Positions 49,298 to 62,717 of a stretch of 64,000 nt of DNA are shown here, piece by piece. Numbering within the stretch: position 1 is the first letter of the stretch; the number at the start of each line of letters is the position of its first letter. Origin of the DNA: Candidatus Endomicrobium embiratermitis. Lineage in GTDB: Bacteria > Elusimicrobiota > Endomicrobiia > Endomicrobiales > Endomicrobiaceae. Below the pieces are notes generated by a model. The model had not been told where the DNA came from and did not search any database. It saw nothing but the letters and a program-made list of their open reading frames with translations. A program made the translations under genes and the position numbers. The stretch spans positions 1 through 64,000 of the forward strand of contig WQYI01000005.1 of NCBI GenBank assembly GCA_009781315.1, written 5' to 3'.

Positions 49298-50683
49298 TTA
49301 CAAATATTCATCCCTAATGCCGTTATCTATGTTTTTAAAGAATTGTTCCAGAAGTTTCAAACTTTCTTGATCAAGGTTTTTTTTATAACTTTCTATGAGT
49401 TTATTTCCCGCCTCTTTTATCGCGGGTTTTGCAAAATCTTCAAGATATTCTTTTAACGTTATCAGAGCGTTTATATCGCACATATGTTTTATTGCGCCGG
49501 GTTTTGCCAAATCCATAAACCGTTCGCCCGTACGGTTTTTACGGTAACATGCCGCGCAAAAACTGGGTATTAATCCTTGCGAAATAAGCGAGCCGGTAAT
49601 TTCTTCAAGCGTACGCTGATCGCTGACGCTGAATTGTCTTTCAAGTTTATCGTTGTGAACGGACTCTTCTTCGTAACCGCCCGGAGTAACTTTAGATTCC
49701 GCGCTTATCTGCGAAACGCCCAGATTTACGAGTTCGTCCCTTAATTTCGCGTTTTCTCTTGTCGACATTATAATGCCCGTATAAGGCACGGATAATCTTA
49801 AAACCGCGACAAGTTTTTTAAATTCTTCATCTGCCAAAGGGTATTCGGGATTGGAAGAGTATTTTGACCCCGGAGCCGGCTCTATTCTCGGTACGGAAAT
49901 CGTATGAGGACCTATGCCGAACTTTTTTTCAAGATACTCAATATGCATAAGAAGCGCGAGGATTTCAAAACGATGATCGTAAAGCCCCAAAAGAGGGCCT
50001 ATGCCGACATCGTCAATTCCCGCTTCAAAAGCTCTGTCAATTGCGTCTAATCGATTGTCGGGATCGGATTTTACGCCGCTAATATGGAGTTTTCTGTACG
50101 TAGTGTCATGATATGTTTCCTGAAATATCTGGTAAGTGCCTATTCCCGCATTTTTAAGTTTTTTAAAAGACTCGACGCTTAAAGGCGCGGCATTGACGTT
50201 TACTCTTTTTATTTTATTGCCTTGATACTCTGCCGAATAAATGGCTTTAACGGCTTGTACATAATATTCTATATTTTTATTTTCGTCGGCAATTTCGCCG
50301 GAAACCATTAAAATTCTTTTATGTCCCCTTTTAAGGAGAATTTCGGCCTGCTCTTTTATCTGGGCGCAAGTAAGATGTTTTCTTACGGTATGTTTATTAT
50401 CGGCGGCAAAACCGCAATAAGCGCAGCTGTTAGAACACAAATTGCTTATATAGAGCGGAACAAATAAAACCACTCTTTTGCCGTAAATCGTATTTTTTAC
50501 ATAAGCCGCGGCAGCATAGATTTTTTTTAATAGTTCGTTGTCTTGGACGGCAAGAAGCTTTGCGGATTCTTCGAGCGTAAGCCTTTTTAACTGTTTCGTC
50601 TTTTCAAGAATTTTATCTATTTCGTCTTTCTTTGCTTCGATTTTTAACAGGGCGTTTATTTTTGATTCGTCTATATGCTTCAA
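49298..50683 (-). CDS. hydG: [FeFe]-hydrogenase H-cluster maturase HydG
   Basis: 461 residues. A radical-SAM enzyme that cleaves tyrosine to supply CO and CN- for the H-cluster. The radical-SAM cluster is CxxxCxxC at C83, C87 and C90. The C-terminal auxiliary-cluster motif CxxC-x22-C is at C376, C379 and C402, which separates HydG from ThiH. It starts six bases after the HydC stop. HydE and HydF are not in the window and must be encoded elsewhere if the hydrogenase is functional. It ends at a strong terminator. Confidence 0.95.
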   Translation of the reverse strand: MKHIDESKINALLKIEAKKDEIDKILEKTKQLKRLTLEESAKLLAVQDNELLKKIYAAAAYVKNTIYGKRVVLFVPLYISNLCSNSCAYCGFAADNKHTVRKHLTCAQIKEQAEILLKRGHKRILMVSGEIADENKNIEYYVQAVKAIYSAEYQGNKIKRVNVNAAPLSVESFKKLKNAGIGTYQIFQETYHDTTYRKLHISGVKSDPDNRLDAIDRAFEAGIDDVGIGPLLGLYDHRFEILALLMHIEYLEKKFGIGPHTISVPRIEPAPGSKYSSNPEYPLADEEFKKLVAVLRLSVPYTGIIMSTRENAKLRDELVNLGVSQISAESKVTPGGYEEESVHNDKLERQFSVSDQRTLEEITGSLISQGLIPSFCAACYRKNRTGERFMDLAKPGAIKHMCDINALITLKEYLEDFAKPAIKEAGNKLIESYKKNLDQESLKLLEQFFKNIDNGIRDEYL

Positions 50684-50688
50684 GTTTC

Positions 50689-51165
50689 TCAGCCTTCTTT
50701 TCTGTAACTGTTGATAACCTCAACGACCTTTTTGGGAGTTAAATCGCCGTGGATTTTTCCGTTGACCATTATTACCGGCGCAAGTCCGCACGCGCCTAAA
50801 CATCTTGCTTCCTGAAGCGTAAAAAGCATGTCTTTCGTAGTTTCGCCCTCTTTAACGCCGAGTTCTTCTTTAAGAGTTTCCATTATTTCAGCTGCGCCTT
50901 TGACATAGCAAGCAGTGCCTAAACAAACCGATATAACGTATTTTCCTCTCGGAGTCAAATTAAAATAATGATAAAAAGTCGCCACGCCCCATATTGTTGA
51001 AGTCGGCACATTCATCTCTTCGGATATAAATTCCATTGTTTCTCTGGACAGATAACCGTAAAGTTCCTGGGCTTTATGCAAAACGGCAATAAGATAAGAA
51101 TCGCCGTCTTCCTTCTTCAAATATTGGGCTATATAATCTTTTAATTCGGTTTGTTTTGCGTCCAT
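50689..51165 (-). CDS. hydC: [2Fe-2S] hydrogenase subunit HydC (NuoE-like)
   Basis: 158 residues, thioredoxin-like [2Fe-2S] protein of the NuoE family. Ligands appear in SVCLGTACYVKGA and EARCLGACGLAP. The N-terminal helical part includes LHKAQELYGYLSRETMEFI and VPTSTIWGVATFYHYFNL. It passes electrons between the NADH-linked HydB and HydA. Half of a heptamer repeat lies just upstream of its ribosome site. It is co-transcribed with hydA and hydG. Confidence 0.93.
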   Translation of the reverse strand: MDAKQTELKDYIAQYLKKEDGDSYLIAVLHKAQELYGYLSRETMEFISEEMNVPTSTIWGVATFYHYFNLTPRGKYVISVCLGTACYVKGAAEIMETLKEELGVKEGETTKDMLFTLQEARCLGACGLAPVIMVNGKIHGDLTPKKVVEVINSYRKEG

Positions 51166-51183
51166 GTTTCAAAATCTCCTTAT

Positions 51184-51208
51184 TTGAACTTTGCACTTTA
51201 AACTTTAT
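51184..51208. repeat. Half heptamer repeat between hydA and hydC
   Basis: TTGAACTTTGCACTTTAAAC consists of the AACTTTG/CACTTTA units found as right arms at 5555-5642 and 32976-33103. No complementary left arm is present, so it may be a solo arm or a decayed element. Confidence 0.55.
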
Positions 51209-52961
51209 TTTTCTTCGGAATTATTCCTTTCGGGAAATGCTCTTTATAATGCGTGTGAAGCAGTTTATGCGATTTCTCGCCTAAAGGTTTTCCTAAAAAT
51301 TCATCATAAAGTTTTTTGATGTCCGGATTTTCGTGGCTTTTTCTTATCATTTTGCCTTTATCGGAATCATAAAGAGCCTGGGCGCGCAGTTTCAAAAGAT
51401 TGACGTCAAAAGGCTCCGAACCTAATCCCGCGTAAGGCTGGCCGCCGCCGCCAACGCAGCCGCCTGGACATGCCATTATTTCTATAAAATGATATTTTGA
51501 TTTATCTTTTCTGACTTCGTCTAAAAGTTTCGCGGCGCTGCCCAAACCGCTTGCCACCGCAAAACGGATTTCAGTACCGCCGACGTCAATTTTTCCTTCT
51601 TTTATTCCTTTGGTGCCTCTGGCCGCCTGTATGTCTATATCGCCCAAAGTTTTTCCCGTGGCAAATTCGTAAGCGGTTCTCAAAGCGGCTTCCATCACTC
51701 CGCCGGTCGCGCCGAAAATCGTACCAGCTCCCGACGACATACCCAGCGGAGAATCAAATTCTTCGCCTTTTATATCGGGAAAATCTATACCCGCGGATTT
51801 TATCATTTTGCCGAGTTCTCTTGTGGTAAGAGCGTAATCCGTCATCTGCATGCCGTCTATCATAAGCTCCGGTCTTTGGGCTTCATATTTTTTCGCGACG
51901 CAGCACATAAAAGCGACATTGACTATATTTTTCGGATCAATGTTCATTTTCTGGGCAAAGTAAGTTTTAGTAATCGAACTTAACATTGACATAGGGGAAC
52001 GGCACGTTGAAACATTTGGAATAAGATCCTGGTAAAACTGTTCCATGGCTTTCATCCACGCGCTTGAACATGAAGTTATCATAGGCAGAACGCCGCCGTT
52101 TTTAAGCCTGTCTAAAAACTCGCTTGCTTCTTCTATAATAGTCAAATCCGCGGTAAACTGGGTGTCAAAAACATAGTCAAAACCGAGTTTGCGTAAAGCC
52201 GCTACTGTTTCTTTTTCCCAGTTTTTGCCGGGCTTTATTCCGAAGTATTCGCCTATCGCGGCTCTGACCGACGGCGCAATCTGGGCGATTTTCACTTTCG
52301 ATTTATCGTTAAGAGCGGCAAAAACTTCGTCCATGTAACATTTTTCCATAAGAGCTGCGGTAGGGCAGACATTTACGCACTGGCCGCAAGTCGTACAGAC
52401 GCTGTCCCTGAAAGACATATCAAAGGCGTGCGCGACTTTCGTATTTATTCCCCTGCTCATAAAATCTATCGCGTGAATATCTTGTATTTCCGCGCAAACC
52501 CTTACGCATCTTCCGCACAGAACGCACTTTTGCTGATTGTTGGTAACGCTGGGGGATAATTTGTCTTTCGGATGTTTTTTTCTTTCGCCTTCAAAATCTC
52601 TCGTTTCCACGCCTATAACGCGGGCAAGATTTTGAAGTTCGCATATGCCGTTTCTTTTGCATATATTGCAGTCCTGCGGATGATTGTCAAGAATAAGCTC
52701 AACTATTTCTTTTCTGGCTTGCCTTATAGCTTCCGTGTTTGTATGGATTTTCATTCCGTCTTTTACGGGATAAGCGCATGAAGCGACAAAATTTTTCATT
52801 CCCTCGACTTCCACAATGCAGACTCTGCACCCGCCGAAAAGAGAAAGCCTGGGGTGATAACACAAACTGGGGATTTTATAGCCCGCTATAGAGGCTGCCT
52901 GCATAATGGTTATTCCATCCGGAACATCGTAAGCTCTGTCGTTAATATAAACTTTTATCAT
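51198..52961 (-). CDS. hydA: [FeFe] hydrogenase catalytic subunit with variant H-cluster motifs
   Basis: 587 residues. N-terminal [2Fe-2S] (C34, C45, C48, C62), a His-Cys3 [4Fe-4S] site (H94, C98, C101, C107), and two [4Fe-4S] sites (C146-C156 and C189-C199) feed the H-cluster domain. The L3 motif is standard: [14 protein letters not shown] with C498 and C502. L1 reads TSCSSAW (296-302) where TSCCPxW is usual, so the second Cys and the Pro are both Ser. L2 reads [11 protein letters not shown], with Cys for the usual Pro before C354. These changes touch a cluster-ligand position in the standard alignment. Context (HydB, HydC, HydG) supports a working NAD-linked, probably electron-bifurcating enzyme. 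The stop overlaps hydC's upstream repeat. Confidence 0.93.
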
Positions 52962-54493
52962 TGTTGTATCCCCGAACTTTTTTTAATGGCGGCAAATTTG
53001 CATGTTTTAAAACATTTTGCGCATTTTATGCATTTTTCGGCAATAACTTTATGTTTTTCTTTCAGCTGCCCTTCTATGGCCCCTGCGGGACAAGCCTTTT
53101 TGCAGGCGCCGCAGCCTACGCATTTTTCGTCGATTACGGAAAAATTTATAAGTTTTTCGCAAACTAAAGCGCGGCATTTTTTAAGCTTTATATGTTCTTC
53201 GTATTCTTCTTTGAAATTTTTTATCGTGCTTAGCACGGGGTTAGGCGCCGACTGACCCAGACCGCAAAGCGACGCTTTTTTTATCATATCGCCAAGATTT
53301 TCAAGTTTTTCTATATCGCCGTCCTGACCTTGCCCTTCGGTAATTCTTGTAAGAATTTCATACATTCTGGTAGTGCCTTCGCGACACGGCACGCATTTCC
53401 CGCATGATTCGCTTCTTGTAAACTCTATAAAATATTTTGCGATATTTACCATACAGGAATCTTCGTCCATAATTATCATTCCGCCGGAACCCATTATAGA
53501 ACCCGCGGCCGCCAAAGATTCATAATCTATGCTTGTATCTAAAAAATTTTCGGTTAAACATCCTCCGGAAGGACCGCCCGTCTGAACGGACTTGAATTTT
53601 TTGCCGTTAGGAATTCCTTCTCCTATATCGTAAACAATTTGTCTTAAAGTCGTCCCCATAGGAACTTCCACAAGACCGGTATTTTTTATTTTTCCGGCCA
53701 GCGAAAAAACCTTTGTGCCTTTCGAATGCTCGGTGCCTATGTCCGCAAACCACTGGGGACCTTCAAGAATTATCGCCGGAATATTTGCCCATGTCTCGAC
53801 GTTATTGACAAGCGTAGGCTTGCCGAAAACCCCGCTTGAAGCCGGAAAAGGAGGCCGAGGCCTCGGCATTCCCCTTTTTCCTTCTATCGAATTTATAAGC
53901 GCGGTTTCTTCTCCGCATACGAAAGCGCCCGCGCCAAGCCTTATTTCTATATCAAAACTGAAATCCGAACCGAGTATGTTCTTACCCAAAAGACCTTCGC
54001 GCCTTGCCGCGACAAAAGCTTTTTCAAGCCTTTCAACGGCAAGAGGATATTCGGCTCTTATATAAATTATTCCTTTTGGCGAGCCGACGGCATAACCGCC
54101 TATAATCATTCCCTCTATAATGCTGTGCGGGTCGCCCTCTATAACGCTTCTGTCCATAAACGCGCCCGGATCGCCTTCGTCTGCATTACATACCACGTAT
54201 TTTTCCGGATCTTTTTCTTTAGCCGTAAATTCCCACTTAAGCCCCGTCGGAAATCCCGCGCCACCCCTGCCTCTTAATCCTGATTTTTTTACATACTCTA
54301 TAACGCCCGTGGGCGTCTTATCAATCAAAGCCGATGCCAAAGCCGAATAACCTTGCGCATTGTAAATGTAATCGTAAATATTTTCAGGGTCTATCAAACC
54401 GCAGTTTCTAAGAGCTATGCGCTTTTGCTGCTCAAAATATTTGACGCCGCTGAAAGTTTTGTTGAAATTATCGTAAATATGCTGTTTTGTCAT
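52958..54493 (-). CDS. hydB: HydB subunit (NuoF-like, FMN/NAD), N-terminal domain split off
   Basis: 511 residues. The FMN/NAD module shows [43 protein letters not shown] and the [4Fe-4S] site [12 protein letters not shown]. Two C-terminal ferredoxin clusters are [14 protein letters not shown] and [12 protein letters not shown]. In Thermotoga-type HydB a thioredoxin-like [2Fe-2S] domain is fused at the N terminus; here it is a separate upstream gene. It oxidises NADH and may bifurcate electrons with ferredoxin. Four-base overlaps with both neighbours show strict co-translation. Confidence 0.95.
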
Positions 54494-54828
54494 TTTGACG
54501 CTCCGGCATTTTTTAAATATTTTTCTATTATTTGAGACGCCTTCGCCTCGTCGACTTGAATATACTTTTCCGTTTCTTTTTCCGTAACCACTTCAACCGT
54601 AGGCTCAAGATTGCACCTGCCCGCGCATCCTTTTTTGCTTAAATAAAAATCTGCGGTTCCGTCTTTTAAAAGTTTTTCAAAAATTTCCATAACTTTATGC
54701 GCGCCCGCCGCGTTTTCGCATGTCGCCGAACCCACGTAAATTTTTACGGGTTTAAAAAAACCGCTTTTTTCAAGTTCTTGTTTTGATTTTTCTTTTATTG
54801 ACTGCAGCGCTTCTTTTGGAGAAGACAT
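54490..54828 (-). CDS. Thioredoxin-like [2Fe-2S] protein, split HydB N-terminal domain
   Basis: 112 residues. It has [16 protein letters not shown] and [16 protein letters not shown], the Cys pattern of thioredoxin-like [2Fe-2S] ferredoxins. It matches the N-terminal domain usually fused to HydB and some NuoF proteins. It is the first gene of the hydrogenase operon and overlaps hydB by four bases, so it should act as an extra electron-transfer subunit of the complex. A clear promoter is not evident in the repeat-filled gap upstream. Confidence 0.88.
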
Positions 54829-60668: not shown

Positions 60669-62261
60669 TTATTCCATAGGAAGAGTTATAGCAAACTCAG
60701 TTCCTTTTCCTTCGACGCTTTTCGCGCTTATAGTGCCGAAATGAGCGTCAACTATTTCTTTTACGATTGAAAGTCCCAAGCCTATGCCTTTAAGTTTTGT
60801 CGTAAACAAAGGGTCAAAAATATGAAGTAAAGTATTTTTGTCCATGCCCGACCCGTTGTCAATAATTTTTATTTCGGCATAATTTCCGATACGCTCGGAC
60901 GATATTTTTATTAATCCTCCGCCCGACATAGCGTCCCTGGCGTTTGAAATAATGTTAATTAAAACCTGCATCATTTTATCAGGGTCTATAACCACGTTGA
61001 AATGTCCGACATCCTTTTCAATTTTAATATTGTCCGGCATCGTAACGTTTAAAATCGCCTTATCTATAAAATCGTCTATCATAATGCTTATTTTATTGAG
61101 TTTTTTCGCTCTTGAAAAATCAAGCAAATCCGTGATTATTTTATTAGATCTGGCAACGTCGGCAGAAAGCATATCAAGCATTTTTTTTGCTTTTTCATCC
61201 TGGAAATTACCGGTTTTTGAAAGGTAATAAGATATATTTTTTAAACTCGCCAGAGGATTCCTGAGTTCGTGGGCTACGGAAGCGGCAAGGCGTCCTATAG
61301 TCGCGAATTTTTCCGATTTTAGCAATTCTTCCTGCATATTTTGCATTTTTACAAGCGTTTCTTCCAGTTCCCTGCTTCGCTGTTCAAGCATAACTTTCAA
61401 ACGCATTAAGTCTTGTTTTTCTCTGTTAAGCTCGTCAACGTAACCTTTTATATCCTGCGCCATCGAGTTAAAAGACTGGGCCAAATCGCTCAGTTCGTCG
61501 TTTGAAATCAGGGGTACCCTGTAAGACAAATCGCCGGATGAAAGTTTTTTAGTCCCGATGACAAGTTCTTTTATGGGACCAATCAGTATTTTGATAAGCA
61601 AAAAAGAAATTATTGAGCTTCCGAGTACTACTATTACGGTAAGCAAACCCACGCTTTTTGATAAGCTGTCAAGCTGTTTATTAAGTATCTCTATCGTAAC
61701 GCCGACCCGCACTATTCCTATGACATATCCCCTGTTTTCGTTTCCCATATTGTCATTTGCAAGAGAAACTCCGGCTATTTTGGGAGATTGGTCGTAAGTG
61801 ACAATCGGAACAAACACCTCAAATACTTTCCCGACATTCTTTAGTTTAAAATATCTGCTTTTCTCTTTTTCCCAGAAAAGCATAGGATCCGCTTCATCGG
61901 GCTTAGTGCTGGACAAAAACTCTCTAATTTCCGTACCGATGGAAGTTTGAGTGACTGACTTGGCAAGCACAACTGCGTCCCTATCGTATATTACTGCGTA
62001 AATTATCTCTCCTTCTTTATCAATCAAAGCATTCGCGGTTAAAATCTTTAACTTTTCTTCTTGTCCGGTTGAAATACTAAACTCGCTGGAATTGGCTATT
62101 ATTTCGGCTATATCCCTGGTTTTTTTTTCAAGATTATTTTTAAGTATATTTCTTTGAGTATATATAAAAAATGCGGTAAGTATCAAAGCTGTGGAAAGAA
62201 CTATGCCTATAATCATAGTTAGCAGTTTTACTTTTAAACTTATGCGCAGCCCTGTTTTCAT
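60669..62261 (-). CDS. Sensor histidine kinase with HAMP domain
   Basis: 530 residues. TM1 about 12-33, a periplasmic sensor region of ~170 residues, TM2 about 205-228, a HAMP domain (about 228-280), a coiled coil, then the DHp with AASVAHELRNPLASLKN (His 331) and an HATPase domain with NIISNARDAMSGG, DNGSGMD and GIGLGLSIVKEIV. It is the first gene of the operon and the likely signal input. The ligand is unknown. The start has a GAGGTG site. In the 62262-62399 gap only its probable promoter region is visible. Confidence 0.94.
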   Translation of the reverse strand: MKTGLRISLKVKLLTMIIGIVLSTALILTAFFIYTQRNILKNNLEKKTRDIAEIIANSSEFSISTGQEEKLKILTANALIDKEGEIIYAVIYDRDAVVLAKSVTQTSIGTEIREFLSSTKPDEADPMLFWEKEKSRYFKLKNVGKVFEVFVPIVTYDQSPKIAGVSLANDNMGNENRGYVIGIVRVGVTIEILNKQLDSLSKSVGLLTVIVVLGSSIISFLLIKILIGPIKELVIGTKKLSSGDLSYRVPLISNDELSDLAQSFNSMAQDIKGYVDELNREKQDLMRLKVMLEQRSRELEETLVKMQNMQEELLKSEKFATIGRLAASVAHELRNPLASLKNISYYLSKTGNFQDEKAKKMLDMLSADVARSNKIITDLLDFSRAKKLNKISIMIDDFIDKAILNVTMPDNIKIEKDVGHFNVVIDPDKMMQVLINIISNARDAMSGGGLIKISSERIGNYAEIKIIDNGSGMDKNTLLHIFDPLFTTKLKGIGLGLSIVKEIVDAHFGTISAKSVEGKGTEFAITLPME

Positions 62262-62399
62262 TTATAAACACCTCAAGTTATTTCTATAAATGATAATAAA
62301 AAATGATTATAAAATCAATCAGTCTTCGTCCGGCAAGCTGCAAAATAGCAGGATTAAAATTAAGAAGCTTTTAAGAAAGGATAAAAAGATAAACTGAAA

Positions 62400-62606
62400 G
62401 CCGACGATAGGGTTTGAACCTACGACCTGCGGTTTACAAAACCTTGTCTATTTCGGTAGAGCTGCTTTGCGGTAAACTTGTTGAATTTTTGCTTTGGCTG
62501 TCAGCCGACGATAGGGTTTGAACCTACGACCTGCGGTTTACAAAACCTTGTCTATTTCGGTAGAGCTGCTTTGCGGTAAACTTGTTGAATTTTTGCTTTG
62601 GCTGTC
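62400..62606 (-). repeat. Two tandem 104-bp units carrying the 3' half of tRNA-Thr
   Basis: Units start at 62400 and 62504 with a period of exactly 104 bp. Each begins with the tRNA-Thr 3' half: about 44 nt identical to the intact gene apart from one T-loop base (G for A on the plus strand). Each then has ~60 bp of other sequence that includes plus-strand CGGTAGAGCTGC, an inverted look-alike of the D arm. They lie directly downstream of the intact tRNA-Thr gene. Neither is a full tRNA. Confidence 0.9.
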
Positions 62607-62679
62607 AGCCGACGATAGGATTTGAACCTACGACCTGCGGTTTACAAAACCGCTGCTCTACCAGCTGAGCTACGTCGGC
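62607..62679 (-). tRNA. tRNA-Thr (TGT)
   Basis: A 73-nt cloverleaf. Acceptor GCCGACG/CGTCGGC, D stem GCTC/GAGC, anticodon stem GCGGT/ACCGC with loop TTTGTAA (anticodon TGT), T arm GTAGG/CCTAT and discriminator T. CCA is not encoded. The 3' end is followed by two tandem partial copies of itself. Confidence 0.95.
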
Positions 62680-62688
62680 GTGTGCGTT

Positions 62689-62717
62689 ATAATATAAAAA
62701 AAACGGATTAAAGTCAA
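62689..62717 (-). promoter_or_regulatory. Predicted promoter of tRNA-Thr
   Basis: On the minus strand TTGACT (62717-62712), a 17-bp spacer and TATTAT (62694-62689), about ten bases before the tRNA 5' end. Confidence 0.65.

Follow-up and report, generated by a model that had tools for sequence, protein, structure and literature searches.

How the 3' half of a tRNA gene came to be repeated twice, and exactly, behind the gene itself is the question raised by one locus in the 64,000-nt stretch of DNA analysed here (the window), which belongs to Candidatus Endomicrobium embiratermitis, a termite-gut bacterium (source genome G000). On the minus strand, a complete tRNA-Thr(UGU) gene (62607–62679, discriminator T at 62607; called by ARAGORN and scoring 74.8 bits against the Rfam tRNA family RF00005) is followed by two 104-bp units (unit 1, 62504–62607; unit 2, 62400–62503) and then by a sensor-kinase-like open reading frame (60669–62261, start at 62261). 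Each unit comprises a 60-nt spacer (62548–62607 and 62444–62503) and then a displaced 44-nt tRNA 3' half (62504–62547 and 62400–62443), which lies on the downstream side of the intact tRNA in the same orientation and runs from the anticodon stem to the discriminator; with the discriminator T included (62503 in unit 1, 62399 in unit 2), the half is 45 nt long. The units are identical letter for letter, and Tandem Repeats Finder reports a single array of period 104 (62399–62651, 99% matches, score 499); the two exact tandem units described in the earlier note are thus real. The one T-loop difference that it saw in both units is also there, as the 45 nt match the tRNA except for a C in place of T at position 60. 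That note had let the copy run from the anticodon loop to the end of the tRNA: the end stands, discriminator T included, whereas the start lies slightly earlier, within the 5' strand of the anticodon stem (between GG and TTTTGTA), two bases ahead of the anticodon loop. A consensus scan picked out a likely tRNA promoter (TTGACT-17-TATTAT, 62689–62717, minus strand), with similar boxes in a second genome of the genus (G001), and a likely separate kinase promoter downstream of the array (TTGATT-17-TATCAT, 62290–62318, minus strand), with a counterpart there; both are consensus matches only. No intrinsic terminator was found near the array or between the tRNA and the array.

To place the array among the tRNA loci of the genus, the 3' and 5' halves at 99 tRNA loci of four genomes were compared with 300 bp on either side. 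Clear 3' copies occur at four of these loci, every one of them downstream. The two best downstream 3'-half scores (45 and 42.5) belong to the tRNA-Thr array in G000 and G001, the next two (19 and 17) to tRNA-Gly(CCC) and tRNA-Val(CAC) of G000, and the remainder do not exceed 10. Upstream 3' copies are absent from all 99 loci, with control scores of at most 8.5, and no other tRNA carries an exact array among the 39 distinct tRNAs of G000 and 38 of G001 checked for one. Downstream of tRNA-Gly(CCC) (contig C4, L094:1513-1720) lie two decayed copies of the T-arm and 3' end, then a small repeat-protein gene and tRNA-Cys; these two tRNAs are nearly adjacent in G001, and the copies look like another, older integration footprint. 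The copy at tRNA-Val(CAC) (contig C2, L054:1669-1846) is an exact 17-nt 3' end about 90 nt downstream, not present in G001.

The place of the kinase gene behind tRNA-Thr(UGU) is kept in the family, which allows the interval between the two to be followed across relatives. In 14 of them the kinase orthologue lies 24–213 nt behind the tRNA with no extra copy; these loci are the empty site. Three others (G017, G027, and G030) hold 2.1, 3.2, and 16 kb inside the interval, respectively, with an exact 15–17-nt copy of the tRNA 3' end just ahead of the kinase gene. The island ends are alike among the three, and those of G030 and G027 bear TATGCCCA-type repeats, which would appear, from their letters, to resemble integrase arm sites. 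An N-terminally truncated PF00589 integrase adjoins the right island end in G030; no tyrosine integrase lies inside the interval in G017 or G027. Three occupied intervals with displaced 3' ends, beside 14 empty loci, mark the stretch from tRNA-Thr(UGU) to the kinase gene as a site of recurrent integration whose far edge is the kinase gene, and the window array lies exactly inside it. The earlier note had proposed a search for integrase genes or islands at this site in relatives, and the search turned up islands at the same tRNA and kinase together with the one integrase remnant; this context, with displaced tRNA 3' ends in the same interval, supports its suggestion that the repeated halves may be attachment-site scars. 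It should be noted that the three islands are of the T-arm class, whereas the window array carries a longer, anticodon-class fragment. G075, which belongs to a different family of the order, has 17 nt of the tRNA-Thr(UGU) 3' end copied 179 nt downstream (L234:73-340); a repeated stretch and an assembly gap of N separate the copy from the tRNA. At a different tRNA, tRNA-Val(GAC) on contig C9 of G001 (L119:3684-4902), a tyrosine integrase of 353 aa (PF00589) directly adjoins the gene's 3' end and is followed by phage-like genes; the right end of this prophage was not found on the contig.

The array recurs in G001, a Candidatus Endomicrobium macrotermitis MAG of the same genus, whose orthologous locus carries two 104-bp units in the same place. 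Neighboring genes of the two genomes share 74–83% DNA identity, and identity at four-fold sites is 51% at this locus and 56–62% in two genes of a hydrogenase cluster. With two units in both genomes at four-fold sites so diverged, the array is, as judged by sequence, an old shared feature, and the only genuine hint of selection or renewal is that an exact tandem repeat has survived such divergence. All four units have the same 3' half. Within G000 the units do not differ and within G001 they are two bases apart, and this likeness within each species therefore indicates concerted evolution of the units. C60 is the state of the units, and tRNA-Thr(UGU) shares it in the three remaining genomes of the genus; the G000 tRNA, with its T60, is the odd one out. 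A further 80 genomes of the order lack the unit junction, as do G002 and G003; a scan of the genome collection with the short junction pattern returned 80 stretches in many phyla, mostly chance matches, and the one in Candidatus Endomicrobium macrotermitis was used. G000, G001, and G003 are roughly equidistant, with G002 farther away; either two of these three lineages share the array, therefore, or G003, where tRNA-Thr now has a different downstream neighbor, has lost it. The earlier note had named two findings that would tell against its reading, a tRNA free of mobile elements in relatives and an array that is an old feature: the former is not what relatives show, as they carry islands, whereas the latter is what G001 shows. 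The hydrogenase cluster lies at 49298–54828 of the window and is iron-only hydrogenase-like (maturase-like, NADH-linked, and catalytic subunits, named by inspection only).

When an island integrates into a tRNA gene, the element's own 3' half restores the tRNA and the old 3' half is pushed downstream. We consider it probable, at about 0.58, that the two units derive from an anticodon-class integrative element, now lost, as relic attachment sites that underwent a single duplication. Crossover for such an element would have taken place in the anticodon region of tRNA-Thr(UGU), so that the element's 3' half rebuilt the tRNA and the old half was displaced downstream; the interior of the element would then have shrunk to about 60 bp, and the module of spacer plus 3' half duplicated once through recombination between the repeats, which may also keep the units alike. 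What we infer is an integrase of the anticodon class, the deletion inside the element, and the duplication of the module; the intact tRNA, the 45-nt copies in the right orientation, the hot-spot interval in relatives, and the age of the array are observed. Relic attachment sites are preferred because the interval holds islands in three relatives and is empty in 14, because the block spans the anticodon arm to the tRNA end, as in anticodon-class islands, and because two further tRNAs of G000 have decayed downstream 3' copies, one with a small gene behind. The ancestral C60 of the units against T60 in the tRNA is expected if the 3' half of the tRNA was replaced, a point mutation giving an equal outcome.

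The locus shows these marks of an anticodon-class island: the tRNA is intact, and downstream of it a same-orientation 3' fragment, bounded at the anticodon arm, is present twice, at a site that mobile elements use (three loci occupied, by the T-arm class, and 14 empty). An integrase between the tRNA and the fragment is the mark that it lacks, and the earlier statement that none is seen at the array holds within the tRNA–kinase interval of the window, where 60 bp separate the fragments; PF00589 matches lie on other contigs, and the recombinases of G000 are only two tyrosine enzymes of Xer size and one large serine enzyme (on another contig). A search for Xer/dif-like patterns was dropped, as so loose a pattern gave hundreds of matches, much like the reversed control. 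No viral match was found for the unit junction as an attP; the single viral match to the 3' half is a complete phage tRNA-Thr and was set aside. Two details of the earlier interpretation fare less well. Successive integrations explain two exact copies less well than does one relic duplicated by recombination between repeats, and for a self-amplifying array we found nothing beyond the concerted identity of the units, which number two in both species. Against relic attachment sites stand the missing integrase, the different class and end sequences of the islands in relatives, and the expectation that a passive exact tandem repeat should vanish fast, yet this one was kept in two diverged species.

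Further evidence comes from the spacer. Its last 25 nt, directly before the half (AAAGCAGCTCTACCGAAATAGACAA; 62548–62572 in unit 1 and 62444–62468 in unit 2, minus strand), are kept at about 22 of 25 positions in G001, giving a consensus for the two genomes of AAAGCWGCTCTACnnnnATAGACAA that runs at the junction into GGTTTTGTAAACC; the limits of this part were picked after viewing the alignment, so that its significance is modest, and elsewhere the spacer is no better conserved than background. The inverted D-arm look-alike that had been reported in the spacer of about 60 bp proved real: on the minus strand at 62559–62581 (unit 1) and 62455–62477 (unit 2) the D-arm-to-anticodon-loop segment of the tRNA recurs in inverted orientation, matching without gaps at 17 of 23 positions in G000 (P = 0.007 by shuffling) and 15 of 20 in G001 (P = 0.0003), the two P values not being independent, as the spacers are homologous. 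The copy stands in the same register in both species, which suggests that the ancestral spacer already held it. Other tRNAs were tried as its source; tRNA-Thr(UGU) is the best or joint best, with Thr(GGU) tying for the G001 unit. In G001, 18 of the first 23 spacer positions recur in the flank past the last half, suggesting either a truncated third unit or a native-flank origin of that part of the spacer; in G000 the flank is unlike the spacer. Duplication of a whole tRNA followed by decay of its 5' half was rejected, the spacer having no significant direct similarity to the tRNA 5' half. The tRNA model scores the units at 13.9 bits in G000 and 20.5 bits for one G001 unit, against a cut-off of 29.

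Integration does not predict the inverted copy, and relic attachment sites require the G001 flank to be a truncated third unit. Both features bring in the main rival, namely that template switching, and no integrase, produced a local tandem duplication. A replication fork would have copied the 3' half together with some 30 bp of flank, folded back to copy part of the tRNA inverted, and returned to the anticodon stem to recopy the 3' half; unequal crossing-over would then have set the number of units. A fold-back would leave just such an inverted D-arm–anticodon segment in one register in both species, with the tRNA itself as its best or joint best source, and the recurrence of the spacer start past the last half in G001 is in keeping with it. 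The breakpoint, however, lies just ahead of the anticodon loop, at the place of integrase cleavage, and the block stops where the tRNA does; the array is located within an integration hot spot, other tRNAs have 3'-end copies only, and the G000 flank does not resemble the spacer. We thus regard template switching as the whole origin of the array as rather unlikely, although the spacer could also have been reshaped in this way following an integration.

Conservation of the array raises the question of whether it is passive at all. That the two units are actively maintained, either as a selected RNA in the tRNA trailer or as a 104-bp attachment cassette renewed by an integrase acting in trans, would explain their equal size and number at 51–62% four-fold-site identity, but we consider it improbable. 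The first form, in which the units are transcribed as the tRNA-Thr trailer and selection retains them, for instance as a processing signal or as an RNA that uses its D-arm-complementary segment for pairing and so acts as a sponge or decoy, would fit the constant unit size and number, the full conservation of the 3' halves and of about 22 of 25 nt of adjoining spacer, and the terminator-free stretch from tRNA to array. The short structured RNAs that the earlier note had envisaged from the units are not supported, though: the units fold no better than shuffles (z = +0.65 and +0.31), their four aligned rows hold 0 covarying pairs (with little power), and no Rfam family is above threshold for them. 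The z of −4.2 for the whole 280-nt stretch is attributed to the tRNA and its repeated halves. The array is moreover missing from G002, G003, and the other genomes of the order, and conversion with the tRNA can explain the constant halves, though not the conserved spacer segment, whose limits were set post hoc; a functional RNA is accordingly quite improbable. The second form, a minimal non-autonomous cassette of core and one conserved arm that integrates repeatedly at tRNA-Thr, would account for the equal unit size in both species and for the conservation of core and adjoining arm while the remaining spacer differs, and the islands of G017 and G027 likewise lack a tyrosine integrase inside the interval. 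Yet there is no candidate integrase, no copy elsewhere, and no viral match for the junction, and common descent explains the shared position; we judge this form highly improbable.

These results document a recurrent integration hot spot in termite-gut relatives of Endomicrobium, and suggest that attachment-site relics can outlast their element as an exact micro-array; were the array selected or re-mobilized, it would amount to an RNA linked to a tRNA or to an integrative unit of unusually small size. A partial literature search found no papers on tandem arrays of tRNA halves, and the array is best viewed beside systems that share parts of its anatomy. The islands of G017, G027, and G030 occupy the same tRNA-Thr(UGU)–kinase interval and also have conserved sequence beside the displaced fragment; they differ in the length of that fragment (15–17 nt, T-arm class), in their unrelated ends, and in a content of 2–16 kb. 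Further parallels are tandem accretion and CIMEs, integrase-less elements flanked by att sites; the array resembles them in lining up more than one putative att site behind a single tRNA with no integrase of its own, but has no genes between the sites. Sublocation classes of tRNA-gene islands were reportedly set out by Williams in 2002. In the Islander database, the anticodon class is the commoner of two (2083 of 3919 islands; PMC4383910), and its members likewise show an intact tRNA followed by a same-orientation fragment from the anticodon arm to the 3' end (PMC4383910), whereas the window array has neither integrase nor cargo, only 60 bp between fragments, and two exact tandem units. The closest published anatomy that we found is that of PYG1 of Pyrococcus yayanosii, an island of about 21.4 kb in an archaeal tRNA-Gln (PMC9897764): almost nothing is left between the repeats of the window array where PYG1 has its 21.4 kb, but both have direct repeats of a tRNA 3' half, 44 bp long in PYG1, with one base difference between the complete and the partial copy (PMC9897764).
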